Part shown: positions 1,162-31,325 of the stretch, in pieces
How the letters are laid out: the number at the start of each line of letters is the position of its first letter
Numbering within the stretch: the first letter of the stretch is position 1
Origin: Oscillospiraceae bacterium
Lineage (GTDB): Bacteria; Bacillota; Clostridia; Oscillospirales; CAG-382
DNA: 40,713 nt
Direction: 5' to 3'
Assembly (NCBI GenBank): GCA_015064955.1
Contig: SVRD01000006.1
Location: 1 to 40,713, forward strand
Program-made: the position numbers and the translations under genes
Notes under the pieces: generated by a model
The model's input: the letters and a program-made list of their open reading frames with translations, nothing else
Told to the model about the DNA's origin: nothing
Database searches by the model: none

Positions 1162-1166
1162 CGGAA

Positions 1167-4011: not shown

Positions 4012-4025
4012 GGACTGTGAAGAAG

Positions 4026-4973: not shown

Positions 4974-4983
4974 GAGGTGACTT

Positions 4984-9367: not shown

Positions 9368-9398
9368 AAGGCTGACATTATTTGTCAGCCTTATTTGT
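9368..9398. terminator. intrinsic terminator between convergent genes
   Basis: A perfect 10-bp stem (AAGGCTGACA 9368-9377, TGTCAGCCTT 9383-9392) with a 5-nt loop, followed by a T-rich tail. It serves the DUF4886 gene. The right arm overlaps the last codons of the convergent fusion gene, so the same hairpin may serve both strands. Confidence 0.8.
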
Positions 9399-16324: not shown

Positions 16325-17539
16325 TTATTCAACAATGATTTCGATACTGTTGATAACAGGCTGCTGATCTTTAGAAATTGTGCCGTTGTTGTCGGTAGGT
16401 GTAGCGTCCTCGCAAATCTTGTCAACAACCTCCATGCCCTCGGTTACCCAACCGAATGCGGCATATTGACCGTCGAGGAATACGCTGTCCTCGTGGCAGA
16501 TAAAGAACTGACTGCTTGCGCTGTCGTACGCCTGCGCTCTTGCCATCGAAATAACACCGCGCTTGTGCGAAATCGAGTTGCTGTGGCCGTTGGCGGGGAA
16601 TTCACCGACAATATTCTTGTCCGAGCCGCCCGTGCCGTTGCCCTTGGGGTCGCCGCCCTGCATCATAAATCCTTCCATAATTCGATGGAAGGTAAGTCCG
16701 TCATAAAAACCGCTTTCTGCGAGAATCACAAAGTTTTCAACAGTAAGAGGCGCTTGCTTCTGGTCAAGCTCCAAAGTGATCTTGCCGTAATCCTTAATGT
16801 CGATAACAGCCTTGTATGTCTTTTCGGCATCAAGCGATGTCGAAACGTCGGAAGCAGATTCCTCCTCGGACGCTTCGGACGATTCGTCCTTGCTTTCTAT
16901 CTTAAGGTCGGTTTCGATAACGATAGATTCGATAACGGGCTGATTCTTTTTAGGGATAGTGCCGTTGTTGTCGGTGGGTTTGGCATCCGCGCATACCTTG
17001 TCAACAACGTCCATACCGTCGACAACGTAGCCGAAAGCGGCATACTGTCCGTCGAGGAATACACTGTCCTCGTGGCAGATAAAGAACTGACTGCTTGCGC
17101 TGTCGTAATCCTGAGCTCTTGCCATCGAAATAACTCCGCGCTTGTGGGATATCGGATTGTAATGTCCGTTTGCGGTAAATTCGCCGACAATATCCTTGTC
17201 CGAGCCGCCGGTACCGTTGCCTTCGGGATCACCGCCCTGCATCATAAATCCCTCCATAATACGATGGAAGGTAAGTCCATCGTAAAAACGGTTGGAAGCA
17301 AGAGTAACAAAGTTTTCAACTGTCTTGGGCGCAGCCGTATGATCGAGCTTGACAATAATTTTGCCGTAATCAAGTACGTTGATAGTAGCATAATATGTCT
17401 TATTGGTATCGATAGTGACAGTAGTGAAGACAGGATTGCTTACACTGCTTTGATCGCTTGTTTCTGCTTCTTCACCGCAAGCGGCAAATAGGGCGAGTGC
17501 CATAACAACGATAATTAAAAGTGAAATTAATCTTTTCAT
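16325..17539 (-). CDS. lipoprotein with two tandem cyclophilin-type peptidyl-prolyl isomerase domains
   Basis: A 404-residue protein. A hydrophobic signal sequence ends in the lipobox LFAAC (Cys21), so it is a membrane-anchored extracytoplasmic protein. Two cyclophilin domains follow, at about 48-212 and 240-404, joined by a Ser/Glu-rich linker. Each carries the active-site block FHRIMEGFMMQGGDP with the catalytic Arg, and SSQFFI further on. It accelerates proline isomerisation in folding of exported proteins. Single-domain lipoproteins are the common form; here the domains are nearly identical, indicating recent duplication. GGAGAG precedes the ATG. No partner gene is adjacent. Confidence 0.9.
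   Translation of the reverse strand: MKRLISLLIIVVMALALFAACGEEAETSDQSSVSNPVFTTVTIDTNKTYYATINVLDYGKIIVKLDHTAAPKTVENFVTLASNRFYDGLTFHRIMEGFMMQGGDPEGNGTGGSDKDIVGEFTANGHYNPISHKRGVISMARAQDYDSASSQFFICHEDSVFLDGQYAAFGYVVDGMDVVDKVCADAKPTDNNGTIPKKNQPVIESIVIETDLKIESKDESSEASEEESASDVSTSLDAEKTYKAVIDIKDYGKITLELDQKQAPLTVENFVILAESGFYDGLTFHRIMEGFMMQGGDPKGNGTGGSDKNIVGEFPANGHSNSISHKRGVISMARAQAYDSASSQFFICHEDSVFLDGQYAAFGWVTEGMEVVDKICEDATPTDNNGTISKDQQPVINSIEIIVE
16381..17400. repeat. intragenic tandem duplication of the cyclophilin domain
   Basis: The segment 16381-16821 repeats at 16960-17400 with a constant offset of 579 bp (193 codons). The central blocks, for example 16471-16570 and 17050-17149, differ at only a few positions. 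The DNA-level similarity shows that the duplication is recent or kept alike by gene conversion. Confidence 0.85.
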
Positions 17540-17604: not shown

Positions 17605-17645
17605 TAACAAAACAACGCTTTTCGTTTGCCGAAAAGCGTTGTTTT
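17605..17645 (-). terminator. terminator of the fumarate reductase operon
   Basis: A perfect 14-bp stem, AACAACGCTTTTCG (17611-17624) and its complement (17630-17643), encloses a 5-nt loop. On the minus strand a T-rich tail follows. It lies about 20 bp beyond the last stop codon of the long minus-strand operon. Confidence 0.85.
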
Positions 17646-17663: not shown

Positions 17664-18854
17664 CTATGCGAACAACATGATTACTTTTGCCACAAGCACG
17701 ATCGCAACAAGTGCAATCGGGTAGGTTGCAGCATAAGCCGAAGCAACTTCGTCTGTTCCTGCGGTTGAAATGAGCGCACCGAGAGCGGGTGTAGATGTCA
17801 TGCCGCCGGTGATAGAACCGAGGTTGTTGAAAATACTGAGCTTGAAAACGTAACGTGCGAAAATATAGCCTACAACCATAGGAATGGTAGTAAGGGCAAC
17901 GCCGTAAAGGAAGTATTCCAACTTTAAGTTTTCAACAAAGTTTACACCGCCGGGGACGCCCGCACCGATAAGGAAGAGAACGAGTCCTAATTCGCGGAAA
18001 ACGTTAAGATTGTTTTTGCTGACCGAAAGGTCAATTGGACCAACGTGCGAGAAGTGACCGAAGATCAAGCCGGAAACAAGCGTGCCTCCCGATGTACCAA
18101 GCGAAAAGTTGATGCCGGGAATATTGATAGAACCGATAATAACACCAACTGCAACCGCAAGGAAAAACGGGAAGAAGTCAAGCGAATCGAGCTTATGAAG
18201 CTTACGCTTGGGCGCGGGAATATTGATCTGACCTGCAGCAATAAAGGACTCGCGTTCCTTTGCGATATCAACCTTTAAAATTTTCGGCAACAATTGAACG
18301 AACAAAACTACGCCCAATACGCCGTAAATGTACGCGATACCATAACCTGCGGTCGCGTTATTCGCCAAATCTTCCGAAACACCCTCTGTTGCTGCCGAAA
18401 GACCGGGTGTAGAGGTCAAACCGCCGGTAAGCAAGCCGACAGTCATGCCGGCGTCAACGTCAAACACTTTGATTATTAATACCGCAACAAGAGCACCGCT
18501 TGAGATAACTACAACGCCCATAAGAATGTATGCAAGTGATTTGCGGTTAAGCGTTCTGAAAAATTTAGGTCCTGCAATATAGCCTACTGCGGTTACAAAT
18601 AACGCGGTGCCTATATTGGAAAATATCTTAAAGCCGGCTTGATTATAAAGATTGATCGTGTTTTCTCCAACAGTGATCTCGGGCACGTAGTGCACCATAA
18701 TACCGTATAAAAGAGCAACAAGCAAAACACCCGCAGTACCGAGAGAAATACCCTTGATGCTGATGCCGCCGATAAGATAACCGACTGCCCCTATTGCAAA
18801 TGCGATGAAAATAAGAGACAGCATTGAATTTAATACATCGCCTAAATAAACCAT
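17664..18854 (-). CDS. aspartate:alanine exchanger (AAEx) family transporter, candidate succinate exporter
   Basis: A 396-residue membrane protein built of two homologous halves, each with about five membrane segments. Each half holds the family signature: TGGLTSTP (143-150) and TGGMTSTP (349-356). The AAEx family (AspT, YidE, YbjL) usually has about 540-560 residues with TrkA-C/RCK domains between the halves. Here the connecting loop is only about 40 residues, so the regulatory domains are missing. AAEx members move aspartate, alanine and, for Corynebacterium SucE1, succinate. It is the last gene of the fumarate reductase operon, 14 nt after the flavoprotein gene, so export of succinate or exchange of aspartate or fumarate for succinate is the most economical reading. 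Substrate is inferred from context. Confidence 0.8.
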   Translation of the reverse strand: MVYLGDVLNSMLSLIFIAFAIGAVGYLIGGISIKGISLGTAGVLLVALLYGIMVHYVPEITVGENTINLYNQAGFKIFSNIGTALFVTAVGYIAGPKFFRTLNRKSLAYILMGVVVISSGALVAVLIIKVFDVDAGMTVGLLTGGLTSTPGLSAATEGVSEDLANNATAGYGIAYIYGVLGVVLFVQLLPKILKVDIAKERESFIAAGQINIPAPKRKLHKLDSLDFFPFFLAVAVGVIIGSINIPGINFSLGTSGGTLVSGLIFGHFSHVGPIDLSVSKNNLNVFRELGLVLFLIGAGVPGGVNFVENLKLEYFLYGVALTTIPMVVGYIFARYVFKLSIFNNLGSITGGMTSTPALGALISTAGTDEVASAYAATYPIALVAIVLVAKVIMLFA

Positions 18855-18868
18855 AAGTTGCCTCCGAA

Positions 18869-20473
18869 TTAGCCGTTGACCTTTCTGGTGTAGTCGGGAA
18901 GAAGCTTGGGCGATACGGTATCGGTTGTAATACCGGCATCGGAAATTTCCTTCTCGAATTTTGCGACGTGGTCAAGGCTGAGCTTGCCGACAGTGATGTC
19001 CTTGCAAGCTGCGCCCGCAGATTTACCGGCGATTCTGCCGAATACGATGATATCAAGCAGGGAGTTGCCCATAAGTCTGTTCTTGCCGTGGATACCGCCG
19101 ACAGCCTCGCCTGCAACAAAAAGATTCTTAACGTTGGTGGTCATACCATCGGGAGTAATATCAAGACCACCATTCTGATAGTGAAGGGTAGGATAAACAA
19201 GAATCGGCTCTTTTCTGATATCGATTCCGTACTTGCCGAACATTCTCATCATCGCGGGAATTCTCTTTTCGATAGTGCCTTCGCCGCCGATAGCCTCGAT
19301 CATCGGGGTATCAAGCCAAACAGCCTTGCCCTGATCGGTTTCAACGCCGTTGCCGCGGGTAGAGCATTCGCGGATAATAGAAGCCGCGGAAACGTCTCTC
19401 GTTTCAAGCGGGTGCATAAATACCTCGCCGTTTACGTTAACAAGCTTTGCGCCGAGCGAACGTACCTTTTCGGTAACGAGTGCGCCGAAGATCTGCTCGG
19501 GGTATGCCGCACCTGTCGGGTGGTACTGAAGTGTTTCAGCATAAAGAAGCTTTGCACCTGCACGGTAACCGAGTACAAGACCGTCTGCGGTTGCACCGTA
19601 GTGGTTCGAGGTGGGGAAGCCTTGGTAATGCATTCTGCCCGCACCGCCGGTCGCGATAACTACAGTCTTTGCCTTTGCAACCAAAAGCTCCTTGGTTTCC
19701 ATATTGAGAAGAACCGCACCTGCTGCGTTGCCGTTTTCGTCAAGAATAAGCTCGATAGCAGAGGTGAAATCAACAACAGGAATCTGTCTGTTGAGAACCT
19801 CATCGCGAAGCGTTCTCATAATTTCAGCGCCGGAATAGTCCTTTGCCGCGTGCATACGCTTTCTCGAGGTACCGCCGCCGTGGGTAGTTACCATAGTACC
19901 GTCTTCGGTCTTGTCAAATTCAACGCCGAGCTCGGAAAGCCACTGGATAGCATCGGGAGCATCGCAAACAAGCTTCTGCAAAAGCTCGCGCTTTGCCGCA
20001 AAGTGACCGCCGCCGAATGCGTCGATAAAGTGGATAGCGGGGGAGTCATTGGGCTTATCTGCCGCCTGAATACCGCCCTCTGCCATCATCGTGTTGGCAT
20101 CACCGATACGAAGCTTGGTAACGATCATAACGTTTGCGCCCGCTTCGTGAGCTTCGATTGCAGCAGAAGAGCCTGCGCCGCCGCCGCCGATAACGAGTAC
20201 GTCAACGTCGTAGTCGGGATTTTCAAGGTCTATATCAGAAGCGGTGATACGGCTGTGCGCCTGAAGTATTGCCGCGAGCTCCTTCGGAACCTTGTCACCC
20301 TTGTTGGGACCGATCTTCAAAAATTCAAATTCGTCCTGCTTGTAGTCGGGGTGGTATTCGGCAAGCAGGTCGGTTTTTTGCTGTGCTGTCATTCTTGCAG
20401 GCTCAAGAGCAATATTCTTTTCTCTTGCCGCTTCAACAGCCGCCAAGGATTTCTGGAATTTTTCAGAATACAT
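18869..20473 (-). CDS. soluble fumarate reductase flavoprotein subunit (FrdA/TfrA-like)
   Basis: A 534-residue FAD protein that should reduce fumarate to succinate. The FAD motif GGGGAG is at 96-101, after an unusual N-terminal extension of about 88 residues. Substrate and catalytic residues of the FrdA/SdhA family are visible: HPTG, the Glu in LVTE, the Arg in ETRD, the His in LHYQNGG, and the Arg in GKNRL. The His that binds FAD covalently in membrane-bound enzymes (SHT-x-AA-x-GG) is replaced: the segment reads ANTMMAEGG, with N127 there. Non-covalent FAD is typical of soluble fumarate reductases such as methanogen TfrA and L-aspartate oxidase. No signal peptide, heme or FMN domain is present. 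It follows the Fe-S subunit gene by 13 nt, and no FrdC/FrdD membrane gene exists nearby. Confidence 0.85.
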   Translation of the reverse strand: MYSEKFQKSLAAVEAAREKNIALEPARMTAQQKTDLLAEYHPDYKQDEFEFLKIGPNKGDKVPKELAAILQAHSRITASDIDLENPDYDVDVLVIGGGGAGSSAAIEAHEAGANVMIVTKLRIGDANTMMAEGGIQAADKPNDSPAIHFIDAFGGGHFAAKRELLQKLVCDAPDAIQWLSELGVEFDKTEDGTMVTTHGGGTSRKRMHAAKDYSGAEIMRTLRDEVLNRQIPVVDFTSAIELILDENGNAAGAVLLNMETKELLVAKAKTVVIATGGAGRMHYQGFPTSNHYGATADGLVLGYRAGAKLLYAETLQYHPTGAAYPEQIFGALVTEKVRSLGAKLVNVNGEVFMHPLETRDVSAASIIRECSTRGNGVETDQGKAVWLDTPMIEAIGGEGTIEKRIPAMMRMFGKYGIDIRKEPILVYPTLHYQNGGLDITPDGMTTNVKNLFVAGEAVGGIHGKNRLMGNSLLDIIVFGRIAGKSAGAACKDITVGKLSLDHVAKFEKEISDAGITTDTVSPKLLPDYTRKVNG

Positions 20474-20486
20474 TTCTTAAACCTCC

Positions 20487-21161
20487 TTATTTCTCGATTT
20501 CTCTTGTGTTGTAAAGCTCTTTCATCTCTTCGATAGGCTTCTGCATCAAAGCCTCGATGAGATCGTTAAACGTGCCGTCCTTGATCTCGCGAACTCTGTC
20601 TTCGAGATGATCGCAGTGAGGAGCGAGATATTTACCGTTGATACGGCGGGCAAGCATAGCAACCTGCGGGTGAGAAATACCTGCGGGGCAACGCGCAGAG
20701 CAAACACCGCACATAACACAGTCAAAGGATTCCTCTGCACACTTTTCGAAATCGCCGCGCTGAGCATATGCAATATACTGCATAACGTTGAGCTCCTGCG
20801 TGCAAGCCTTTGTGCATGCATTACAGCCGATACAAGCATAGATTTCGGGGTAAAGCTGCATCATAACCGATTCGGTTACGGGAACCTTGTTCATATCGTA
20901 TACCTGCTTCACAAGAGGGAAGAAGGGAAGAGTTGCTATGTACATATTGTCTTCAACTTTAGTCTGGCAGGCAAGGCAAGCCTTGAGCTCCTTGTCGCCT
21001 TTAATGCGGTAGATGGTTGCGCAAGCACCGCAAAAACCGTTTCTGCATCCGCATCCGCGAACAAGCTGATAACCGGCATATTCCATAGCGTTCATTATTG
21101 TTAAATTGTCCGGAACTTCGTATTTTTTACCGAACAGAAAAATGTTGACCATATTCGCCAT
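20487..21161 (-). CDS. iron-sulfur subunit of fumarate reductase (FrdB/TfrB N-terminal-like)
   Basis: A 224-residue electron-transfer subunit. The N-terminal domain (1-75) has a [2Fe-2S] ligand pattern C37, C39, C44, C47 and C62/C65. The C-terminal half carries two four-Cys clusters, C110-C113-C116-C120 and C148-C151-C154-C158. SdhB/FrdB proteins have one [3Fe-4S] cluster with three Cys; here both sets have four, as in HdrC/GlpC-type dicluster proteins. In methanogen thiol:fumarate reductase, TfrB adds a C-terminal CCG (HdrB-like) domain. That part is missing here but is encoded separately as hdrB in the same operon. The start at 21161 has AAGGAG 11 nt upstream; M4 is an alternative. Confidence 0.8.
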   Translation of the reverse strand: MANMVNIFLFGKKYEVPDNLTIMNAMEYAGYQLVRGCGCRNGFCGACATIYRIKGDKELKACLACQTKVEDNMYIATLPFFPLVKQVYDMNKVPVTESVMMQLYPEIYACIGCNACTKACTQELNVMQYIAYAQRGDFEKCAEESFDCVMCGVCSARCPAGISHPQVAMLARRINGKYLAPHCDHLEDRVREIKDGTFNDLIEALMQKPIEEMKELYNTREIEK

Positions 21162-21209
21162 AAGTCGTAATTCTCCTTAAAACGTAAATAAATCCTGTAA
21201 CGTCTTTTA

Positions 21210-22043
21210 TCAATATTCGCTGGGGAGCTCGTCGAGCTCGTCAAATCTGAAAACAGGTCCGTCCTTGCAAACGTACTTCGAGCCGACGTTGCAACGGCCG
21301 CATTTGCCGATGGCGCACTTCATCTTAAGCTCGAGTGTTGTGTAAACCTGAGTCTTTTTAAATCCCAACGCCTGAAGTCCGTCGAGTGTGAACTTGATCA
21401 TTATGGGAGGACCGCAAAGAACAGCAGTCTTGTCGGTATCAAATCCGAGCTCCTTTACGTAGTTGGGAACAAAGCCTACGTGTCCGTCCCAACCCTCTTG
21501 CTCTCGGTCGATGGTAAGGTGTACGTTAACACCCTCATCGGTCGACCATTCTTCGATGATTTCTTTGTACTGAAGAAGATCGTCCTTACTGCGCGAACCG
21601 TAAACGATATCGATTGTGCCGTAGCGTTCACGGTAATGTCTGCAGTAATTGATAACCGATCTGAGCGGAGCAAGACCTACACCGCCCGCTACGAAAAGCA
21701 GATTCTTGCCGACGAACGCATCGTCAACAGGGAACGGCTTGCCGTAAGGACCGCGTATGGTGATCTGCTGACCGACCTCAGCCTGATGAAGCCAATCGGT
21801 CACGCAACCGCACTTTTTGATAGAAAATTCCATATACTCGGTGTTTGTGGGGGAAGAGGTGATCGAAAACATCGCTTCGCCGACACCGGGTATCGAAAGC
21901 ATTGCACACTGTCCGGGCATATGGTCAAATGCCTTTTTGCCGTCGGGCGTTACAACACGGAAGGTTTTGATATCGGGAGTATCAATACGAACGTCGGTGA
22001 TCTCGGCAACTACCGGAATCAAGGGCTCTTTGATCATGTTCAT
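21210..22043 (-). CDS. flxA: FAD/NAD(P)H-binding subunit (FlxA-like)
   Basis: A 277-residue ferredoxin-NADP reductase-type protein. It has a flavin-binding barrel (about 10-105, with MFSITSSPT), an NAD(P)-binding domain (about 108-235, with FVAGGVGLAPLRS and LCGPPIM) and a C-terminal [2Fe-2S] motif C-x4-C-x2-C-x7-C in CAIGKCGRCN. This is the layout of FlxA and of sulfhydrogenase gamma subunits, which oxidise NAD(P)H and pass electrons to Fe-S partners. The start at 22043 has GGGAGG 9 nt upstream. The gene overlaps the flxB-like gene by 4 bp (ATGA). In this operon it is the likely entry point for NADH electrons into the Hdr complex. Confidence 0.82.
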   Translation of the reverse strand: MNMIKEPLIPVVAEITDVRIDTPDIKTFRVVTPDGKKAFDHMPGQCAMLSIPGVGEAMFSITSSPTNTEYMEFSIKKCGCVTDWLHQAEVGQQITIRGPYGKPFPVDDAFVGKNLLFVAGGVGLAPLRSVINYCRHYRERYGTIDIVYGSRSKDDLLQYKEIIEEWSTDEGVNVHLTIDREQEGWDGHVGFVPNYVKELGFDTDKTAVLCGPPIMIKFTLDGLQALGFKKTQVYTTLELKMKCAIGKCGRCNVGSKYVCKDGPVFRFDELDELPSEY

Positions 22044-23056
22044 TCTTCATTACCTCCCATTGTTCTCATAACCTTGGCGATATTCATCGAAATAGGACAC
22101 TTGGCAAGACATCTTCCGCATCCGACACAGCCGAATATGCCGTCGTTATTTTCGGGATAATATACAAGCTTGTGCATAAATCTCTGTCTGAAACGCTCTA
22201 CCTGGCTTATACGGTTGTTACCGTGTGCCATTTTGGTAAAGTCGGAATACATACAGGAGTCCCAGCAACGGAATCTGATAATTTCGTTACCGGTATTGAA
22301 ATCCTTAACGTCATAGCATTGGCAGGTCGGGCAGACAAAGGTGCAGGTGCCGCAGCCGAGGCAGGATTCCGAAAGCGATTTCCATTCGGGGCGGTCAAAA
22401 AGCTCTTTTGTCTTGCCGCCGCCGAAGCCGTCGGTGGTGAGATTTGCGAGCGGAAGCTTGTCAAGAATCTTTTTGGTCGATTCCTTCTGTGCTTCAACCG
22501 CGCTTTCGTCACATTCTTCGAGACCGAGCGATGAAAGAAGCTTTTCGCCCTTTTCGGTGTTTGCCTGCCAATAGAGCGAATCTTCTGTCTTCCAGACAGA
22601 AATATCTCCGCCGGGATTGGTGCAGTCAATGCCAAAGGTCTTGCAGAAGCAGGTTTCGGTCGGTCTTGTGCAGGCAACCGAAATAATAACACCGTGCTCT
22701 CTGCTGGAAGCATAATAGCTGTCGTAGGGTTCAACAAGGAATACTCTGTCGAGAATATCAAAGCTTCTTACGTCGCAAGCGCGTACTCCGAATACGATAA
22801 AATCCTCGGATTCCTTTCTGATATCGTCAACAGAAATAGATTTGCCGCTGACCTTGAATTTCATAAGGTCTTGTACTTGGGGGAAGAAGAAATCCTTGGG
22901 ACTCTTAACGGTGTTGAGAGCATCGCTCCATTCGGTTCCATTTTCCCATTTGGTGTATTCGGCGCGGCCGTCCTTGTCAGCAGGGAGATAAAGAGTGGCG
23001 TTGCTTGCAAGCTTCTCGAAAATACTGTTGATCGAATCGATCGAGCACTTAAACAT
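22040..23056 (-). CDS. flxB: [4Fe-4S] dicluster electron-transfer subunit (FlxB-like)
   Basis: A 338-residue protein with two [4Fe-4S] motifs near its C-terminus: CLGCGTCTFVCPTC followed by QCYDV, and CVGCGRCLAKCP. The N-terminal half (FGVRACDVRSFDILDRVF) resembles sulfhydrogenase beta/AsrA-type proteins, with further Cys pairs in CTRPTETCFC and DCTNPGGD. It should relay electrons between the FlxA flavoprotein and the rest of the complex. It overlaps both neighbours (4 bp with flxA, 1 bp TAATG with flxC), so the stoichiometry is probably fixed. The letter assignment follows position next to flxA; FlxB and FlxC are similar in type and could be swapped. Confidence 0.75.
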   Translation of the reverse strand: MFKCSIDSINSIFEKLASNATLYLPADKDGRAEYTKWENGTEWSDALNTVKSPKDFFFPQVQDLMKFKVSGKSISVDDIRKESEDFIVFGVRACDVRSFDILDRVFLVEPYDSYYASSREHGVIISVACTRPTETCFCKTFGIDCTNPGGDISVWKTEDSLYWQANTEKGEKLLSSLGLEECDESAVEAQKESTKKILDKLPLANLTTDGFGGGKTKELFDRPEWKSLSESCLGCGTCTFVCPTCQCYDVKDFNTGNEIIRFRCWDSCMYSDFTKMAHGNNRISQVERFRQRFMHKLVYYPENNDGIFGCVGCGRCLAKCPISMNIAKVMRTMGGNEE

Positions 23057-24045
23057 TATTCGCCCCTCCTTTCAAATGCTTCGGACGGCTCGAGGTCGCC
23101 CTCGGTATAGTTTACAAGCGGCGCGCGTGAGCCAACCTCTGCGCCTGCCTGATAATCGCCGTAGAATTCGTTGATATCTTTAATAAACTTACGGTTCAAA
23201 AGATGAAGCGGAATGTGCTGCGGACATACTCTCGAGCATTCGCCGCAGTCGGTACAGCGTCCTGCAACGTGGAATGCACGAATGATGTGGAACATCTTTT
23301 CCTCAAATTCGTTTGCCGGAGCCTTGTTTTCAACACCGGATTTGGGGTTGTCGAAAACACACTTTTCACAAGTACAAGCAGGGCAAACGTCTCTGCAGGC
23401 GTTGCAACGGATACATCTCGAAAGCTCGTTCTGCCAGAATGCAAAGCGTTCGTCGGGCGTCATAGCCTCGAGCTTTGCAACCTCGTCGAATCTCGCGTTT
23501 TCGATTACATCACCGTCTTCACCCAAAAGCTCGTCAAACGCAACGTGCTTTTTGCTCTTGCAGTTGATGCAGCGTTCTGCGAGCACGTCCTTCGGGTCGA
23601 TGAGTATCTTTTCATCGCTGTAAATTGTTGAAACAGCGATTTTTTCGCCGCATTCGATTTCCGAAATACCGTCGCCGACAGCTTCTCTTACCTTGTTGAT
23701 ATCCGCCATACCCTCGCAGGGAATACCGACAACGTATACTTTTTCGCGGTCGAAGCGGTGCTCGGTAAGGAGCTGGTTAAAGCTGTAAGTGTCGCAGGGC
23801 TTGAGGAAAACAAGAAGCTTGCCCTCCGCCTTGCGAGTCTTTTGAATAAGATATTTAGAGAAGTTTGCACCGCAAAAATCGTTCCAAACGAATTCTGCGT
23901 TCAGATCCTCTGTTGTAGTAAATACAGAAGGGGTTACGTCGTAATCAAATTCGCCCTTTCTCCAACCGAGGACAGCGCAAACACTGCCGTTTTCGAGAAG
24001 TGAAGCGGCCTTTTCGATCAAAGCGTTACGGGTTATTTTTTGCAT
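23056..24045 (-). CDS. flxC: [4Fe-4S] dicluster electron-transfer subunit (FlxC-like)
   Basis: A 329-residue protein. The N-terminal part (1-170) holds FLKPCDTYSFNQLL, a fold also seen in the preceding paralogue. Fe-S motifs are CINCKSKK, CIRCNACRDVCPACTCEKC and CTDCGECSRVCP. It resembles the second Fe-S subunit of FlxABCD and related oxidoreductases. Start GGAGG lies 7 nt before the ATG, the stop overlaps the flxB start, and the start overlaps the flxD stop by 13 bp. It probably bridges FlxB and FlxD. It has one more Cys-rich motif than expected for a simple dicluster protein, so an additional cluster is possible. Confidence 0.72.
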   Translation of the reverse strand: MQKITRNALIEKAASLLENGSVCAVLGWRKGEFDYDVTPSVFTTTEDLNAEFVWNDFCGANFSKYLIQKTRKAEGKLLVFLKPCDTYSFNQLLTEHRFDREKVYVVGIPCEGMADINKVREAVGDGISEIECGEKIAVSTIYSDEKILIDPKDVLAERCINCKSKKHVAFDELLGEDGDVIENARFDEVAKLEAMTPDERFAFWQNELSRCIRCNACRDVCPACTCEKCVFDNPKSGVENKAPANEFEEKMFHIIRAFHVAGRCTDCGECSRVCPQHIPLHLLNRKFIKDINEFYGDYQAGAEVGSRAPLVNYTEGDLEPSEAFERRGE

Positions 24046-24467
24046 CTCAGGTCCTCCAATCTCTTGTTCTCGCCCAATGCCTTTATCTTTTCGGCAAAAT
24101 CATTCATCGTTGCGGCGAACTTTGCACCTTCTGCAGCAGATACCCATTCGAGTCTGGTGCGCTCTCTTTCGATACCGAGATAATCGAGCATCGAGAAAAG
24201 AAGCGTCATTCTGCGGCGGGTATAATAATTACCCGAGGTGTAGTGACAGTCGCCGGGGTGGCAGCCGCAAAGGATAACACCGTCCGCACCGCGCTGGAAT
24301 GCGCGAAGCACGAACATCGGGTTAACTCTGCAGGAGCAGGGAACTCTGATTATCTTAACGTCAGCGGGGTAGTTGAGTCGGTTGTTGCCCGCAAGGTCGG
24401 CACCTGCATAAGAACACCAGTTACAGCAGAATGCGACGATAAGGGGCTTGTATTCGTTTACTTGCAT
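24033..24467 (-). CDS. flxD: MvhD/FlxD-type [2Fe-2S] subunit linking to HdrA
   Basis: A 144-residue protein of the MvhD family, often auto-named hydrogenase iron-sulfur subunit. Signature blocks are FCCNWCSYAGADLAG near the N-terminus, VPCSCRVNP, and VILCGCHPGDCHY. In Mvh-Hdr and Flx-Hdr complexes this subunit docks on HdrA and delivers electrons from the hydrogenase or NAD(P)H module. No [NiFe]-hydrogenase subunits (MvhA, MvhG) are present in the window, whereas FlxA-like and FlxB/C-like genes are adjacent, so the partner is the NAD(P)H module. GGAGGT precedes the start by 10 nt, and the gene overlaps hdrA by 10 bp. Confidence 0.88.
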   Translation of the reverse strand: MQVNEYKPLIVAFCCNWCSYAGADLAGNNRLNYPADVKIIRVPCSCRVNPMFVLRAFQRGADGVILCGCHPGDCHYTSGNYYTRRRMTLLFSMLDYLGIERERTRLEWVSAAEGAKFAATMNDFAEKIKALGENKRLEDLRCKK

Positions 24468-26452
24468 ATTGCATCCACCTCCGCAATAATCTGTTCGCTT
24501 GCAAATCCCTTAAGGTCCATAGCGCCCGAGGGACAAACAACTGTACAGCAGCCGCAGCCTTGACATACGGCAGGGTTGACAACTGCGATACGGCGCATAA
24601 GTGTGCTTCTGTCGGGCATACGGAACTCTTTGTCTTCATAAGTGATAGCACCGTAAGGACATACTCTTTCACAGCTCGAGCAGCCGTTACACATCATTTC
24701 GTTAGACTGTGCAACGCAGGGGTTGCCGGTGAGCTTATCCTTGGCAAGCAAGCCGATAACCTTGGATGCCGCCGCACCTGCCTGCGAAACGGTTTCGGGG
24801 ATATCCTTGGGACCTTGGCAGGCACCCGAAAGGAATACACCCGCAGTAGGACTTTCAACAGGACGAAGCTTCGGGTGAGCCTCGGTGAAGAAGTCGTTTG
24901 TATCCATACTTGCGGTAAGCATTGTCGCAAGCGGACGAGCGGATTTGTCGGGCTCGATAGCCGCGGCGAGAACAACCAAGTCAGCGTCGATCTTGATCTG
25001 CTTGTTTGCAATAAGATCAGATGCCTGAACGATAAGCTTGTCTCCTTCGGGAACTACCTTGCCGACCATACCCTTAATATAATGTACGCCGTATTCTTCA
25101 ACAGCTCTGCGGTAGAATTCATCGAAGTTCTTACCGGGGGTACGAACGTCTATGTAGAATACGTAAACTTCGGTGTCGGGATATTTGTCTCTTGTAAGCA
25201 TTGCATGCTTTGCGGTATACATACAGCAGATCTTCGAGCAGTATTCCTTACCTTTTTCGTTGCAAGCGTCACAGCGAGAGCCCACGCACTGAACGAAAAC
25301 GATCTTTTCGGGGTGCTTGTGGTCGGAGGGACGCAAAAGCTTTCCCGCGGTAGGACCTGCCGCGTTGGTAAGACGCTCGAACTCGAGCGAGGTAATAACG
25401 TCTTTGGACTGGTTGTATGCGAATTCATCGAATTTATCCATACTTATGGGATTGAAACCGGTCGCAACAACGATAGCGCCGTATTTTTCTTCGATGATCT
25501 CGTCCTTTTGAGTATAATCAATCGCGCCTGCGGTACAAACCTTCGAGCATACACCGCATTTGCCGTTTTTGAGCATATTACAGTAATCGGGGTCGATAGT
25601 CGCAACCTTCGGTACTGCCTGCGCAAAGGGAATGTAGATAGCGCGCTTTGTATCCATATTAAGATTGAAGTCGTTGGGGACCTTCTTCATCGGACACTTT
25701 TCGGTACAAGCACCGCATCCGGTACAAAGCTCTTCCTTAACGTAACGAGCCTTTTTCTTGATCTTAACGTCAAAATTGCCGACAAAGCCGCTGACCTCGG
25801 TGACTTCGCTGTAAGAAAAGATACGGATCTTTTCGTTCTGGGCAACGTCAACCATTTTGGGAGTGAGAATACACGCCGCGCAGTCAAGCGTCGGGAAGGT
25901 TTTATCAAGCTGAGCCATCTTACCGCCGATAGTGGGCTTCTTTTCGACAATGTCGACCTCAAATCCCGCATCTGCGATATCAAGCGCGGTCTGAATACCT
26001 GCGATACCGCCGCCGATAACAAGCGCGCGCTTTGTAACGGGCGATTCGCCGGGAGTAAGCGGTGTGTTCAAATTGACCTTTGCAACAGCCGCCTTGCCGA
26101 GAATAATCGCTTTTTCGGTGCCGGTGGGGATATCCTTGTGTACCCAAGAGCACTGCTCGCGGATGTTTGCGATCTCAACCATATAGGGATTGAGTCCTGC
26201 CGCTGCGGCAGTCTTTCTGAATGTAGCCTCGTGCATACGGGGCGAGCAGGAACATACTACGATACCGGTGAGCTTGTGCTCCTTGATCGCATTTTTGATA
26301 AGATCCTGACCTGCTTGTGAGCACATATACTGGTAGTTGTCGGAAAAGACAACACCGGGCTCGTTTCTAAGTGCTTCGGCAACGGCAACAACGTCAACCG
26401 TACCTGCGATATTAGTACCGCACCAGCACACAAATACGCCGATTCTTTGCAT
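24458..26452 (-). CDS. hdrA: heterodisulfide reductase subunit A, bifurcating flavoprotein (HdrA)
   Basis: A 664-residue full-length HdrA. The N-terminal motif CWCG (C9, C11) is followed by SCSPRMHE, the FAD motif GGGIAGIQTALD (about 147-158), the HdrA Cys motif DCAACILTP, a ferredoxin motif CTGCGACTEKCP (mid-protein), CVGSRCDACN with CSKICC, and two C-terminal [4Fe-4S] motifs, CNGCSSCERVCP and CQGCGCCTVVCP. HdrA carries the FAD at which an electron pair splits to low-potential ferredoxin and a high-potential acceptor. TAAGGAGGA precedes the ATG. The protein is complete, including the N-terminal segment some short versions lack. With flxD and hdrBC it defines a complete Hdr-Flx unit. Confidence 0.9.
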   Translation of the reverse strand: MQRIGVFVCWCGTNIAGTVDVVAVAEALRNEPGVVFSDNYQYMCSQAGQDLIKNAIKEHKLTGIVVCSCSPRMHEATFRKTAAAAGLNPYMVEIANIREQCSWVHKDIPTGTEKAIILGKAAVAKVNLNTPLTPGESPVTKRALVIGGGIAGIQTALDIADAGFEVDIVEKKPTIGGKMAQLDKTFPTLDCAACILTPKMVDVAQNEKIRIFSYSEVTEVSGFVGNFDVKIKKKARYVKEELCTGCGACTEKCPMKKVPNDFNLNMDTKRAIYIPFAQAVPKVATIDPDYCNMLKNGKCGVCSKVCTAGAIDYTQKDEIIEEKYGAIVVATGFNPISMDKFDEFAYNQSKDVITSLEFERLTNAAGPTAGKLLRPSDHKHPEKIVFVQCVGSRCDACNEKGKEYCSKICCMYTAKHAMLTRDKYPDTEVYVFYIDVRTPGKNFDEFYRRAVEEYGVHYIKGMVGKVVPEGDKLIVQASDLIANKQIKIDADLVVLAAAIEPDKSARPLATMLTASMDTNDFFTEAHPKLRPVESPTAGVFLSGACQGPKDIPETVSQAGAAASKVIGLLAKDKLTGNPCVAQSNEMMCNGCSSCERVCPYGAITYEDKEFRMPDRSTLMRRIAVVNPAVCQGCGCCTVVCPSGAMDLKGFASEQIIAEVDAICK

Positions 26453-26466
26453 TTGTCTCTTCCTCC

Positions 26467-26859
26467 TTACTTAGTGTACTTTCTGAATGCCGAAACGATA
26501 AGCTGCTGAGGCGTGTCGTCATCAACGAGCTCGGGAATATCATTTGCGGTAAGTCTGTTGTTGCCTTGCTTGCGGATCGCGGCAAGACGTACTGCCTCTA
26601 CAAGCTTTGCGGGCTCGACGCTTCTCGGGCATCTTTCAACGCAAGCAAAGCAGGTAAGGCATTTATAAAGCGATTCGCTTTCGAGCAACGGCTCGATATC
26701 GCCGCTTTCTACCATGTAAACAAATTGATGAGGATGATATTCCATTTCGTCAAACGAAGGGCAGGTAGCAGTGCACTTGCCGCAACGCATACATTTCTTC
26801 GGATTAACTCCGCTGATACGGATTATCTCCTCCTGAAGATACTTTTTGCTGTTACTCAT
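26467..26859 (-). CDS. hdrC: heterodisulfide reductase subunit C (HdrC)
   Basis: A 130-residue protein with two classical [4Fe-4S] sets, C23-C26-C29-C33 and C67-C70-C73-C77, spaced as in HdrC. It carries electrons from HdrA to the HdrB active site or, in this operon, to the fumarate reductase Fe-S protein. AAGGAGG precedes the ATG, and the start overlaps the end of hdrB by 8 bp. Its length is slightly below the usual 180-190 residues of methanogen HdrC, mainly at the C-terminus, which is a common bacterial form. Confidence 0.88.
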   Translation of the reverse strand: MSNSKKYLQEEIIRISGVNPKKCMRCGKCTATCPSFDEMEYHPHQFVYMVESGDIEPLLESESLYKCLTCFACVERCPRSVEPAKLVEAVRLAAIRKQGNNRLTANDIPELVDDDTPQQLIVSAFRKYTK

Positions 26860-27640
26860 TCGTATCCTCCTTCACTCCCAAAGCCTCGGCAAGAAGCTCG
26901 GTAAGATATACAACGGGAATATCACAGTCCGCCTTTTCAAGATTGTATTTGCAAAGCGGACAAGCGGTAACGATTACTTCCGCACCCGCTTTCTTTGCGC
27001 TGTTGATTACGTTTGCACTCTTCTTTTCGGCAAGCGTTGCATCGTCAAGACGTACGTAACCGCCGCAGCACTCGTTACGGTATCCGTAAACAACGGGTGT
27101 TGCGCCGAGTGCAGAAATAAGATTTTCGATAATGCTGGGGTTTTCGGGGTCGTCCATACGCATTACCGAATTGGGACGAAGCAACAAGCAACCGTAATAA
27201 GCGGCAATCTTTTTATCTTTAAGAGGATTTACAACACATTCCTTTATCTTCTCGTAGCCGATAATGTCGCGGAGAAGCTCAAGGTAGTGATAAATGCGGG
27301 TTTCGCCGTTGTATTCGCCCTCGGACATATAACGGTTTACCTTGCTTGCAAATTCCTTGTCGTTCTGCATAGCGTAGTTTGTCTGCTTTACAACGTTGTG
27401 GCAGGCAGAGCAAACTGTTACCAGATCCTGCTCCTTCTTAAGTGCGTCCTTGAGAATTCTGACAGAAGAAAGCTTTGTGGCAACCTCATCCTTTGCGGTG
27501 GTGAAAACGCCGCCGCAGCATTGCCAGTTTTCTGTTTCTTCCAGTGTAACACCAAGCTTTTCGGCGCATTTTCTTGCATAAACGTCAAGAATTTTTGCCT
27601 TGTTCTTGAGTGTACAACCGGGGAAGTAACTGAACTTCAT
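26852..27640 (-). CDS. hdrB: heterodisulfide reductase subunit B with two CCG domains (HdrB)
   Basis: A 262-residue protein with both CCG signatures intact: C9, C41-C42, C77-x2-C80, and C151, C191-C192, C227-x2-C230. In HdrB these bind the two non-cubane [4Fe-4S] clusters that reduce the CoM-CoB heterodisulfide. Clostridia do not make these coenzymes, so another disulfide or direct electron transfer must apply. The start YFPGC is typical. In the methanogen fumarate reductase this domain is fused to TfrB, which suggests contact with the FrdB/TfrB-like protein here. It follows fumC by 74 nt with CGGAGGT as ribosome binding site. Confidence 0.9.
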   Translation of the reverse strand: MKFSYFPGCTLKNKAKILDVYARKCAEKLGVTLEETENWQCCGGVFTTAKDEVATKLSSVRILKDALKKEQDLVTVCSACHNVVKQTNYAMQNDKEFASKVNRYMSEGEYNGETRIYHYLELLRDIIGYEKIKECVVNPLKDKKIAAYYGCLLLRPNSVMRMDDPENPSIIENLISALGATPVVYGYRNECCGGYVRLDDATLAEKKSANVINSAKKAGAEVIVTACPLCKYNLEKADCDIPVVYLTELLAEALGVKEDTNE

Positions 27641-27714
27641 TTAATAGTACCTCCGATTGAACTATCGTCGTTGTTATACAAATATGAAAAGTTTTTAGGA
27701 ATCCGTGCAAGGAA

Positions 27715-29091
27715 TCAAACCATTTCTTCGGGGTGGAATACCTCGTCAAAACGCTCTGCGGTGAGGAATCCGAGCTCTACGCAAGCTTCCTTCAGCGAAA
27801 TGTTGTCCTTGTATGCCTTCTTAGCGGTCTTTGCCGCGTTTTCATATCCGATATAAGGATTGAGCGCGGTAACGAGCATAAGAGAATTGTGAAGATTGTG
27901 ATGCATCTTTTCCTTGTTTGCGGTGATGCCGACAGCGCACTTTCTGTTGAACGAGAGAATTGCTTCGGAAAGAAGTCTCGCGGACTGAAGGAAATTGTAA
28001 ATGCAAACCGGCATAAATACGTTGAGCTCAAAGTTGCCCTGCGATGCCGCCATGGAAACGGCAACGTCGTTACCCATAACCTGAACCGCAACCATAGTTA
28101 CAGCCTCGCACTGTGTGGGGTTTACCTTGCCGGGCATAATCGAGCTGCCGGGTTCGTTTTCGGGAATGAAGATCTCTCCCAATCCGTCTCTGGGTCCGGA
28201 AGCAAGCCAACGAATGTCGTTTGCGATCTTCATCATATCGCAGGCAAGCGCCTTGATAGCACCGTGTGCAAATACAAGCTCGTCCTTCGAGGTGAGAGAA
28301 TGGAATTTGTTTTCTGCGGTAATAAACTTTTTGCCGGTGATGTTGCTGACTTCTTCAGCTACTCTTTCGGCAAATCCCTTGGGTGCATTAAGACCGGTGC
28401 CGACCGCAGTGCCGCCCAAAGCGAGCTCGCGGAGCGGGTCGATAGAACGCTTGATAAGCTCAACGTCCTTTTGCAAGCTGGATCTCCAACCGCTGATTTC
28501 CTGACTGAACTTAATAGGCGTTGCGTCCTGAAGATGCGTTCTGCCGCTCTTTACGATGCCTTCGTTTTCTGCTTCGAGGCGGAGAAAGGTGGCGATAAGC
28601 TCTTCGGCTGCAGGGATAAGCTTATCCTCGAGAGCGATAACTGCCGCGATATGCATAGCGGTGGGGAAGGTGTCGTTCGAGGACTGGCTCATATTAACGT
28701 CATCGTTTGGGTGGAGAAGCTTTTTGCCAAGGATCTCGTTCGATCGGTTTGCGATAACCTCGTTCGAGTTCATATTGGACTGTGTGCCCGAGCCGGTCTG
28801 CCATACAACGAGAGGGAAGTGGCTGTTGAGCGTGCCCGACATAACCTCGTCGCAAGCCTTTTTGAGAGCTTCCAATTTTTCATCGGTCATTTTTTCGGGC
28901 TTGAGCGCATTGTTGGTTATAGCGGCTGCCTTCTTCAAAACACCGAATGCGTGGATTATTTCGGCAGGCATTGTTTCGATACCAACGCCGATTTCAAAGT
29001 TTTCACGGCTTCTCTGAGTCTGAGCTGCCCAAAGTCTGTCTGCGGGAACCTTCATTTCGCCCATCGAATCGTGTTCTATACGGTATTCCAT
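27715..29091 (-). CDS. fumC: class II fumarate hydratase (fumarase C)
   Basis: A 458-residue enzyme interconverting malate and fumarate. Family signatures are SSNDTFPTAMHIA, SGRTHLQDATPI, and the signature loop GSSIMPGKVNPTQCE; the length is typical for class II (about 460). It needs no Fe-S cluster. It follows mdh by 21 nt and precedes hdrB by 74 nt, so it makes the substrate for the downstream fumarate reductase. AAAGGAAA lies upstream at a somewhat long distance, with AGAGAA closer to the ATG. Discrimination from argininosuccinate lyase and aspartase is by the signature and by the neighbours; aspartase would also fit the family but keeps other active-site residues. Confidence 0.88.
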   Translation of the reverse strand: MEYRIEHDSMGEMKVPADRLWAAQTQRSRENFEIGVGIETMPAEIIHAFGVLKKAAAITNNALKPEKMTDEKLEALKKACDEVMSGTLNSHFPLVVWQTGSGTQSNMNSNEVIANRSNEILGKKLLHPNDDVNMSQSSNDTFPTAMHIAAVIALEDKLIPAAEELIATFLRLEAENEGIVKSGRTHLQDATPIKFSQEISGWRSSLQKDVELIKRSIDPLRELALGGTAVGTGLNAPKGFAERVAEEVSNITGKKFITAENKFHSLTSKDELVFAHGAIKALACDMMKIANDIRWLASGPRDGLGEIFIPENEPGSSIMPGKVNPTQCEAVTMVAVQVMGNDVAVSMAASQGNFELNVFMPVCIYNFLQSARLLSEAILSFNRKCAVGITANKEKMHHNLHNSLMLVTALNPYIGYENAAKTAKKAYKDNISLKEACVELGFLTAERFDEVFHPEEMV

Positions 29092-29112
29092 TTTCTCTGT
29101 ATTTCCTTTCGA

Positions 29113-30057
29113 TTAAAACTCAATCGCGTTAATAACGTTTTTAAGTGCTTTTGCGCTGTTGTGAAGTGCTTCGATTTCCTTGTCGTTAAGAGGAAGCAAT
29201 ACCTTGCCGTGCGCACCCTTGTTGCCTACAATGTTAACGAGCGACAAACATACGTCGTCGATGCCGTATTCGCCGTCAAGCATAGTGGAAACGGTAAGGG
29301 TGGTATCAATACCCGAAAGAAGTGCTTTGACAACACGGCAAACCGAAATAGATACGGCGTAGAAGGTTGCACCCTTGCGAGAGATGACTCTTGCGCCCGA
29401 TTTGCGTACGTATTCCTCTACCTCTGCTTCGTTGAGCTCGGGATAAACACCTTCGGTTCCGAGAAGCGATTCGCGGTAGTCCTTAACGGGAACGTTACTG
29501 ATGTTTGCAAGCGACCAAGGAATGAAGCAGCTGTCGCCGTGCTCGCCGAGAACGTATGCGTGTACGTTCTGCTGATTTACGTGGTAGTATTCGGAAATTC
29601 TCGAACGAAGTCTCGATGTGTCGAGAATAGTGCCCGAGCCGATGATGTGCTCGTAAGGAAGTCCCGAATATTTACAGAAGGTGTAGGTGAGGATATCAAC
29701 GGGGTTGCTGACGATAACGTATGTCGCATCGGGAGCATACTTCGTGATCTCGGGAATAATCTGCTTTGTGATGTTGACGTTTACTTGGGCAAGATCAAGT
29801 CTTGTCTGACCGGGCTTTCTTGCAACGCCGGATGTGAGAATGACAATGTCAGAACCGACCGCATCGGGATAACTGCCCGCGTAGATTGTGCAGGGATGAC
29901 AGAAGGGAGTGCCCTGACGGATGTCAAGCGCTTCGCCCATTGCTTTTTCGCCGTTGATATCGATCATAACGATTTCGGAAGCGATGCCCTGAACGGTGAG
30001 GGTGTAAGCGATGGTGGCACCAACGCTGCCGGTGCCGATAATGGTGATTTTTGTCAT
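29113..30057 (-). CDS. mdh: malate dehydrogenase, LDH-like type
   Basis: A 314-residue NAD-dependent enzyme with GTGSVG (8-13), D33, NPVD, LDTSRLR, and GEHGD carrying the catalytic His. The substrate loop reads VARKPGQTR, with R80 at the position that is Gln in lactate and Arg in malate dehydrogenases. A standard annotation would probably say L-lactate dehydrogenase. This residue and the location directly before fumC and fumarate reductase make malate dehydrogenase far more likely. The Thr in KGATFYA is lactate-like. AAAAGGAGA precedes the ATG. First gene of the 12-gene operon, read from the promoter at 30214-30242 through a leader of about 150 nt. A paralogue sits in the hydrogenase operon at 4026-4973. 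Confidence 0.8.
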   Translation of the reverse strand: MTKITIIGTGSVGATIAYTLTVQGIASEIVMIDINGEKAMGEALDIRQGTPFCHPCTIYAGSYPDAVGSDIVILTSGVARKPGQTRLDLAQVNVNITKQIIPEITKYAPDATYVIVSNPVDILTYTFCKYSGLPYEHIIGSGTILDTSRLRSRISEYYHVNQQNVHAYVLGEHGDSCFIPWSLANISNVPVKDYRESLLGTEGVYPELNEAEVEEYVRKSGARVISRKGATFYAVSISVCRVVKALLSGIDTTLTVSTMLDGEYGIDDVCLSLVNIVGNKGAHGKVLLPLNDKEIEALHNSAKALKNVINAIEF

Positions 30058-30213
30058 AAAGTTCTCCTTTTGTGTTTCAGCAGATTTTGCCTTGCACTGT
30101 ATGTTATGAAATTCTTTTTCGTGATTGTTCCCAACGGGGATTAGAAAAGCTTTGCGCGGAGAGAAAATATCATTAATATCATTAAATATAAAGGTACGGA
30201 CTAAACCGACAAT

Positions 30214-30242
30214 ATTATAGCAGAAAAAATCGTATTTTGCAA
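30214..30242 (-). promoter_or_regulatory. promoter of the mdh-fumC-hdr-flx-frd operon
   Basis: On the minus strand TTGCAA (30237-30242) and a perfect TATAAT (30214-30219) are spaced by 17 bp. The leader of about 150 nt holds two adjacent direct repeats ATATCATTA (30168-30176, 30177-30185); no known riboswitch was recognised in it. Confidence 0.65.
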
Positions 30243-30328: not shown

Positions 30329-31258
30329 TTATAAAATTTTTGCGGTTGCTTTCGTGGAATCCGTAAGATAATCGATAAATGCGTTATCAAGCATCGAAAA
30401 CTTATGATTTTTCCGGTATATCAGGGTGTCTCTGTAAAGCTTTCCGCTGCCGTCACAAGCGATTTGAACAAGACCGTAACGATCAAGCAGAATTTCGGGC
30501 AGGGGAGACATCCACATAAACGTTTTGCTGTTCTCCGCGAGCAGCTCCAATTGCGCGGCGCTGTCGAGCAGATATATTCGCTTCTCCGAGCTGATTCTTA
30601 AATCGGGCTCCTTGCTGTCAGAGGCTGTCAGCGTGGCTTCGTAGGGATCTGTATGAGTGATCTGTATAAACTCGGTAAGATCTCCTTCGGAAATAACCCT
30701 CTTCGTCGCAAGCGGACTCTTGGCAGAGGTGATTACGGTATATCTGAAATCGGTAATATGTCTGCTTTCAAGCTCGTTTTTGCGCAGCAACTCCTCAAAG
30801 TATCTCTGGGCATCTGCATCATACCTGATTATGCCGAGCTTGCATTCCGATGAAATGATTTTTTTGATTGTATTGTACGTTCCTGTTTCATCAAAAACGA
30901 TTTCCGCTGTCTCGCCGTCAATACAGCGCGTAAATGCGGCAAACGCTTCGGCAATATAAGCCGCACGCGGTGCAGAAAGCGAAAACGTTTGCTTCCTCGG
31001 AGCTGACCTTTTATAAGCCGATTCAAATTCATCTATCTGATTCAAAACAGCTCTTGCACGTGCAATAAGGTCCTTCCCGTCGGCAGTTAAAGTCATGCCT
31101 TTTGCGGTTCGGTCGAATATGGCGATGTCAAGCTCCGATTCGAGATCCTTAATTGCGCGACTGATATTCGGCTGGGCAACAGCCAGACTCTCGCTTGCCT
31201 TGCTGATAGAGCCGAGCAAAGCGACTTCTACCGCATATTTCAAGTGAATTATATTCAT
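30329..31258 (-). CDS. LysR-family transcriptional regulator
   Basis: A 309-residue regulator. The winged helix-turn-helix occupies the first 60 residues (GSISKASESLAVAQPNISRA), and a periplasmic-binding-protein-like effector domain follows. It binds an unknown small molecule and usually activates neighbouring genes. The start at 31258 is chosen because GAGGTG lies 6 nt upstream; the longer frame beginning at 31279 lacks a site. The gene lies immediately before the mdh-hdr-flx-frd operon on the same strand, separated by a terminator and an inverted repeat, so control of that operon is plausible but inferred. A 6-bp inverted repeat (31266-31285) near its own start may allow autoregulation. Confidence 0.88.
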   Translation of the reverse strand: MNIIHLKYAVEVALLGSISKASESLAVAQPNISRAIKDLESELDIAIFDRTAKGMTLTADGKDLIARARAVLNQIDEFESAYKRSAPRKQTFSLSAPRAAYIAEAFAAFTRCIDGETAEIVFDETGTYNTIKKIISSECKLGIIRYDADAQRYFEELLRKNELESRHITDFRYTVITSAKSPLATKRVISEGDLTEFIQITHTDPYEATLTASDSKEPDLRISSEKRIYLLDSAAQLELLAENSKTFMWMSPLPEILLDRYGLVQIACDGSGKLYRDTLIYRKNHKFSMLDNAFIDYLTDSTKATAKIL

Positions 31259-31325
31259 AAAGCACCTCAAATATATCATTTTGAGATATTATATCACAGT
31301 TTGCTTGAAAAATCATCGTTTTTTT

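Follow-up and report, generated by a model that had tools for sequence, protein, structure and literature searches.

A 'succinate operon' joining fumarate hydratase, a reduced nicotinamide adenine dinucleotide (NADH) dehydrogenase/heterodisulfide reductase complex and a fumarate reductase has been described in Pseudoclostridium thermosuccinogenes (PMC7282089, 2020). The locus considered here has the same content and order as far as that paper's accessible parts describe it, and comprises twelve minus-strand genes at positions 17664-30057 of a 40,713-nucleotide (nt) stretch, hereafter the window, from an Oscillospiraceae bacterium (contig SVRD01000006.1, assembly GCA_015064955.1). In those parts of the paper, fumarate hydratase is followed by the complex (RS03360-30, seven genes if the tags step by five), then by the fumarate reductase (RS03325-20) and a hypothetical protein for which a role in succinate transport is suggested. 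They also propose the same ferredoxin coupling, credit the bifurcation idea to a 2019 preprint (10.20944/preprints201912.0288), and report RNA-seq data in which low CO2 raises the operon about 4-fold, although the rise does not reach significance for all subunits. The order fumarase, Hdr-Flx, FrdBA and transporter is matched in the window. The published description starts at fumarate hydratase, whereas here a malate-dehydrogenase-type gene precedes it; the comparison is one of gene descriptions.

A soluble, quinone-independent succinate pathway, in which NADH-driven flavin bifurcation reduces both fumarate and ferredoxin, is probably the best explanation of this operon. A broader version, held more tentatively and with slightly less than even confidence, is that a Tfr-type fumarate reductase may be joined at HdrB, acting as a pure electron junction and not as a disulfide reductase, to a bifurcating Hdr-Flx complex, in three arrangements, each from a different part of the FrdA tree, which would give many gut Clostridia including Ruminococcus flavefaciens a quinone-free, ferredoxin-charging succinate pathway. 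The mechanism itself is not new; what is added here is a wider known range, a domain-based reason for the HdrB junction and a counter-example to obligate coupling. The first-pass annotation of the window knew of no biochemical description of the combination. The mechanism had in fact already been proposed in print, as the accessible text of the cited papers makes clear, whereas neither a proof nor an enzymatic study of the complex was found in the searched literature, which mostly excluded subscription papers and preprints.

Several other described systems share parts of this architecture. In tubeworm symbionts, tfrAB is interspersed with flxABCD-hdrABC, and Flx-Hdr has been suggested to pass electrons straight to TfrAB (PMC6315080, 2019, in its accessible parts). 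The tfrAB-korABCD-flxABCD-hdrABC clusters of these symbionts and of Thioflavicoccus stand in a reverse tricarboxylic acid cycle setting with Kor genes interspersed, unlike the operon here. The title of the report on Desulfovibrio vulgaris FlxABCD-HdrABC (Ramos 2015) names the same seven subunit types and links them to ethanol metabolism, whereas here they share an operon with FrdBA. In the methanogen thiol:fumarate reductase TfrAB, the likeness lies at the other end of the proposed chain: FrdA is closest to TfrA, FrdB resembles the N-terminal part of TfrB and HdrB its C-terminal part, all below cut-offs. The two parts of TfrB form one chain in methanogens and are two genes here, and coenzyme M/coenzyme B thiols are the electron source there, whereas NADH through Flx is proposed here. 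The 8-methylmenaquinol:fumarate reductase SdhABE pairs an HdrB-like SdhE with SdhAB, and the HdrB of the window scores 145 bits against the SdhE model (cut-off 500). SdhABE uses quinol, whereas the quinone synthesis marker UbiA was not found over cut-off in this genome. Quinol:fumarate reductases of the complex II family have an anchor gene beside frdAB and the His that binds flavin adenine dinucleotide (FAD) covalently; neither is present in this operon.

In the window, the twelve open reading frames are consecutive, in the order given by the first-pass annotation (mdh, fumC, hdrB, hdrC, hdrA, flxD, flxC, flxB, flxA, frdB-like, frdA-like, transporter), with which Pfam and NCBIfam family models agree. 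Its description of the genes as mostly overlapping is too strong, as overlap occurs at only five of the eleven junctions (hdrB/hdrC by 8 nt, hdrA/flxD by 10, flxD/flxC by 13, flxC/flxB by 1 and flxB/flxA by 4), the remaining six having gaps of 13-74 nt.

All seven HdrABC-FlxABCD subunit types are encoded together on the minus strand. Family models, supplemented by alignment for HdrB and HdrA, assign hdrB (26852-27640, two complete CCG motifs), hdrC (26467-26859, a 2[4Fe-4S]-type subunit), hdrA (24458-26452, a bifurcating-type flavoprotein with flavin and ferredoxin domains), flxD (24033-24467, an MvhD/FlpD-type electron-transfer subunit, PF02662), flxC (23056-24045, an iron-sulfur subunit), flxB (22040-23056, a sulfhydrogenase-beta/AsrA-like iron-sulfur subunit) and flxA (21210-22043, the FAD/NAD(P)H-binding subunit proposed as electron entry). 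Residues 3-661 of HdrA align to 5odc_A, the HdrA of a solved Hdr complex, with 679 bits, and HdrB is alignable with solved HdrB chains. The ten CCG ligand cysteines of HdrB are all invariant (64/64 sequences). Besides the SdhE model, the protein matches the HdrB model (160 bits) and the C-terminal half of TfrB (43 bits), in every case under cut-off.

The frdA-like gene (18869-20473, minus strand) encodes a TfrA-like flavoprotein (FAD_binding_2) alignable with SdhA and FrdA of known structure. Residues H318, T334, E335, R338, R359, H431 and R466 are invariant in 81/81 sequences, and the conserved residues align with the dicarboxylate-site counterparts (Arg, His, Thr, Glu) in SdhA/FrdA. At the position of the covalent-FAD His, 80 of the 81 sequences have Asn (Asn127 in the window) and one has His. 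The protein has an N-terminal extension of about 86 amino acids and no Pfam match to the C-terminal succinate-dehydrogenase domain. TfrA is its best NCBIfam match (343.4 bits, far under the cut-off of 718); it remains under the curated cut-off of every one of the 25 NCBIfam models among the matches listed (59 families matched), and L-aspartate oxidase (NadB) reaches 263.7 bits where TIGR00551 asks for 452.75. The predicted structure has a predicted template-modelling score (pTM) of 0.82, and its best match is E. coli FrdA at a template-modelling score (TM) of 0.61. The frdB-like gene (20487-21161, minus strand), assigned like frdA by family models and alignment, encodes 224 amino acids with a [2Fe-2S]-type domain. 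Fourteen cysteines, including two full four-Cys cluster motifs, are invariant in 76/76 sequences. FrdB matches the N-terminal part of TfrB weakly (40 bits, under cut-off), and Pfam and NCBIfam family models find no CCG domain in it. Its predicted model (predicted local distance difference test 76, pTM 0.45), for which Foldseek matches include SDHB and FrdB at TM of about 0.3, was given no weight. No thiol-oxidising domain accompanies FrdBA, and none of the twelve operon genes encodes a membrane anchor, the rest of the genome not having been searched for one.

The remaining three genes, all on the minus strand, supply the metabolic frame. The fumC product (27715-29091) is a class II fumarate hydratase (TIGR00979, 710.6 bits, cut-off 664.75), and the last gene (17664-18854) is assigned by family models to the AspT/YidE (Asp-Al_Ex) transporter family, as a candidate dicarboxylate carrier. 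The first gene, mdh (29113-30057), belongs to the lactate/malate dehydrogenase family. Hidden Markov model scores favour a lactate dehydrogenase, as the product lies above the cut-off of two curated L-lactate dehydrogenase models (351 vs 339; 333 vs 304) and slightly under that of the malate dehydrogenase subfamily model (274 vs 283). The specificity-loop residue is nevertheless Arg (R80) in 40/40 aligned operon copies, the window included, and this is presumably the malate-type residue distinguishing malate from lactate dehydrogenase. Because of this Arg, the first gene is read as likely encoding malate dehydrogenase, and lactate dehydrogenase is judged less likely. Arg likewise occupies this loop position in a second gene of the family, at 4017-4973.

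In the proposed mechanism, malate dehydrogenase and fumarase would convert oxaloacetate to fumarate, while FlxA would accept hydride from NADH and FlxBCD would relay electrons to HdrA. The HdrA flavin would split them, one set passing to ferredoxin and the other to HdrC, HdrB, FrdB and finally FrdA, where fumarate would be reduced to succinate for export by the AspT/YidE-type transporter. The predicted stoichiometry is 2 NADH + fumarate + oxidised ferredoxin -> 2 NAD+ + succinate + reduced ferredoxin. HdrB may be the junction at which a Tfr-like module is joined to the Hdr-Flx core, direct transfer replacing the thiol/disulfide step, a proposal made because FrdA, FrdB and HdrB together match the domain content of Tfr (TfrA plus TfrB). 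With potentials of about -0.3 V for NADH, +0.03 V for fumarate/succinate and about -0.4 to -0.5 V for ferredoxin, the exergonic branch is, on this reckoning, sufficient to drive the endergonic one. The energetics are comparable to those of crotonyl-coenzyme A in Bcd-Etf.

Conserved adjacency of hdrBCA-flxDCBA-frdBA in related genomes, named in the first-pass annotation as a check on its idea, was surveyed and is kept. Among the nearest loci, which are the best 80 FrdA loci of a public genome scan in which more exist, 63 carry hdrB-hdrC-hdrA-flxD-flxC-flxB-flxA-frdB-frdA in this order and the other 17 end with the contig, within 6 kb upstream of frdA, which puts the arrangement beyond chance. 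The 63 full-core loci include fumC in 60, the transporter in 42 and mdh in 39, this last count being affected by a 10 kb flank that often stops short of mdh; in two loci mdh comes after frdA. By record title, the best 80 are mostly metagenome-assembled genomes assigned to Clostridia, Oscillospiraceae or Ruminococcus, and many of them come from animal guts. The operon is also seen in records labelled Treponema (L119), Bacteroidaceae (L133) and Synergistaceae (L156), through gene transfer or wrong binning. Ruminococcus flavefaciens FD-1 (L122) carries it from fumC to the transporter, the mdh region lying beyond its flank. This species is a classical rumen succinate producer, and no text linking it to Hdr-Flx was found in the literature searched.

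In a less biased sample, FrdA is found at E<=1e-120 in 53 of 390 other genomes of the class. Twenty of these carriers, chosen for contig room and with stretches ending about 1 kb past frdA, were inspected: the nine-gene core is present in 19, fumC in 11, mdh in 15 and a downstream transporter in 10, and in the exception (G652) the stretch breaks off within an hdrB that adjoins frdBA. The spread is patchy, with FrdA in 2/17 same-order genomes of the class sample. Horizontal gain by this genome from another class, an idea prompted by the lack of a match in the 14 same-class genomes of the phylum sample, was rejected in view of the 53/390 class genomes that match.

Across the phylum, the same kind of FrdA (at least 50% identity) occurs in 38 of 397 other genomes, from which 39 loci were examined. 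One locus (L069) has the order hdrC-hdrB-hdrA-flxDCBA-frdBA, and in four genomes, each with one locus, frdBA is followed by hdrBCA and flxDCBA. Eleven loci carry a large HdrA, FlxD and an unnamed, weakly flxC-like gene, with no flxA or flxB match; nine of them have hdrBC and a second HdrA, and the two others (L048, L058) are cut before that point. In relatives of family f60 (L042-L044, L046-L048, L051, L056, L058, L063), two HdrA, FlxD and a gene of about 370 amino acids precede frdBA. One HdrA of this cluster type has about 1050-1100 amino acids (L048 and L058 are cut), and the gene of about 370 amino acids has no Pfam match at 1e-10 (L043). In L043, a 2-oxoacid:ferredoxin oxidoreductase-type gene lies 3' of the frdBA cluster. 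In an FrdA tree of 67 rows, the operon type forms one branch (support 83/86, recovered in 85% of bootstrap trees) and the frdBA-first type another (100/100), with L069, a single rather long row, elsewhere. The nine core genes thus occur side by side in three different orders, each in its own part of the tree, and they seem to be kept together by selection, whether separately assembled or rearranged.

Hdr genes do not always lie beside frdBA. Searches for HdrA in 21 genomes (17 without an hdr gene beside frdBA and four with hdrCB only; G276 was omitted for its short contig) found it in 17, and among the 17 lacking an adjacent hdr gene it lies elsewhere in 13. As for other neighbours, frdBA in L039-L041 comes directly after a gene that is assigned to pyruvate carboxylase by Pfam in L039 and belongs to one cluster in all three loci; three genomes of the genus concerned yielded no HdrA. 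In L052, L053, L055, L060 and L072, class I fumarase subunits and malic enzyme precede frdBA (Pfam on L052; clusters c13, c7 and c5).

The cellular setting was assessed in 14 carriers, namely this genome, FD-1 (via L122) and 12 more, selected for completeness from the 53 other class carriers. UbiA prenyltransferase is under cut-off in 11 of them, including this genome (82% complete), FD-1, single-contig G462 and G532, and over it in 14/14 controls, which argues against quinol as donor. [FeFe] hydrogenase is present in all 14 (against 1/14 well-known genomes as control), an RnfD/E-type subunit in 9/14, with a weaker match in this genome, and ATP-type phosphoenolpyruvate carboxykinase, the only type tested, in 7/14, this genome included. 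Over the whole class sample, RnfC exceeds its cut-off in 283/391 genomes; among the 54 class carriers, 22 have matches stronger than 1e-100 and 10 lie between 1e-20 and 1e-100, this genome being intermediate (5.3e-43). Reduced ferredoxin could thus go to Rnf in some carriers and to hydrogenase in the 14 tested. The window itself holds, consecutively at 1158-6414 on the plus strand, genes for two proteins of [FeFe]-hydrogenase type, one of them sensor-like and carrying a PAS domain, for a SpoIIE-type phosphatase and for the second lactate/malate dehydrogenase-family member.

Bifurcating fumarate reduction, as put forward in the first-pass annotation, is partly supported: it is the best-supported reading and the adjacency on which it drew is kept. 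Several observations weigh against this reading, and the first of them is a clear counter-example to obligate coupling. No HdrA was found at E<=1e-40 in four genomes (G380, G071 and G296 of one genus, and G067) whose FrdBA is of the same kind and 58-64% identical. These four stand closest to the operon clade in the FrdA tree, G067 being on a long branch of unsure place. Since FrdBA occurs in such genomes, it can work with another electron source, and coupling to Hdr may be a later addition. No hdr gene stands beside frdBA in 19 of the 39 phylum-wide loci, several of them on short pieces. UbiA is over cut-off in 3/14 carriers. Rnf, the obvious consumer of reduced ferredoxin, is not universal, 22/54 class carriers having no RnfC match better than 1e-20. 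HdrA, HdrB and HdrC lie under the methanogen model cut-offs (785 vs 1100, 160 vs 345 and 68 vs 160), which is no surprise for a bacterial relative, and the searched literature holds no enzymology on the mechanism.

The same four genomes, in three of which FrdBA adjoins pyruvate carboxylase, favour a mere co-regulation, where the electrons of FrdBA would come from NADH, reduced ferredoxin or a small carrier, with Hdr-Flx serving some other reaction in the same growth state. This account is unlikely given the linkage in 63/80 nearest loci, the other 17 being contig-cut, and in 19/20 class carriers, and given the three arrangements of the same nine genes. We give no better chances to a thiol relay, in which Hdr-Flx would reduce the disulfide of a small thiol or of a protein and FrdBA would oxidise the thiol as Tfr does, with no direct transfer from HdrB. 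Disulfide chemistry could still work with the full set of CCG ligands kept in HdrB, and hdrCB alone lies beside frdBA in 4/39 phylum-wide loci; FrdB nevertheless has no counterpart of the CCG domain through which TfrB handles thiols, and DsrC, which might serve as thiol carrier, exceeds its cut-off in 0/14 carriers, the E. coli control being positive. That the FrdA-like protein reduces another enoate, or that the operon runs backwards as succinate oxidation, is very improbable: the failure to reach any listed NCBIfam cut-off, that of TfrA included (343 vs 718), speaks for it, whereas the complete fumarate-site residues, the fumarase and malate-dehydrogenase-type gene in the operon and the Asn replacing the covalent-FAD His speak against it. 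In E. coli FrdA mutants, a change of this kind costs succinate oxidation most.

As to expression signals, a candidate minus-strand sigma-70 promoter upstream of mdh (30214-30242, consensus match only, 10/12, with TG before the -10) and an intrinsic terminator candidate on the same strand (17609-17645, 16-pair stem and T-rich tail, longest stem listed) lie where the first-pass annotation placed them, but neither site type is commoner than chance in the region (25 promoter-like sites vs 18.7 +/- 4.3 in shuffles, 21 terminator-like sites vs 19.2 +/- 5.1). The upstream LysR gene (30329-31279) was rejected as a conserved operon regulator, being matched in only 1/20 class-carrier stretches, at 34% identity. 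An 803-amino-acid open frame antisense to fumC and mdh (27733-30144, plus strand) is probably a codon-usage artefact. Elsewhere on the minus strand, 16325-17539 encodes a 404-amino-acid protein with two cyclophilin-type stretches, and 9378-11162 a fusion of a family 8 glycosyltransferase with an acyltransferase domain, adjoining a second glycosyltransferase of this family and a second acyltransferase.

If the bifurcating pathway is true, succinate producers lacking quinones would conserve energy, each fumarate reduced charging ferredoxin usable for Rnf ion pumping or H2. HdrB could then be a wire and not solely a disulfide reductase, Hdr-type bifurcation would gain fumarate as a further high-potential acceptor, and the proposal of 2019-2020 would become testable in a second cultured organism.

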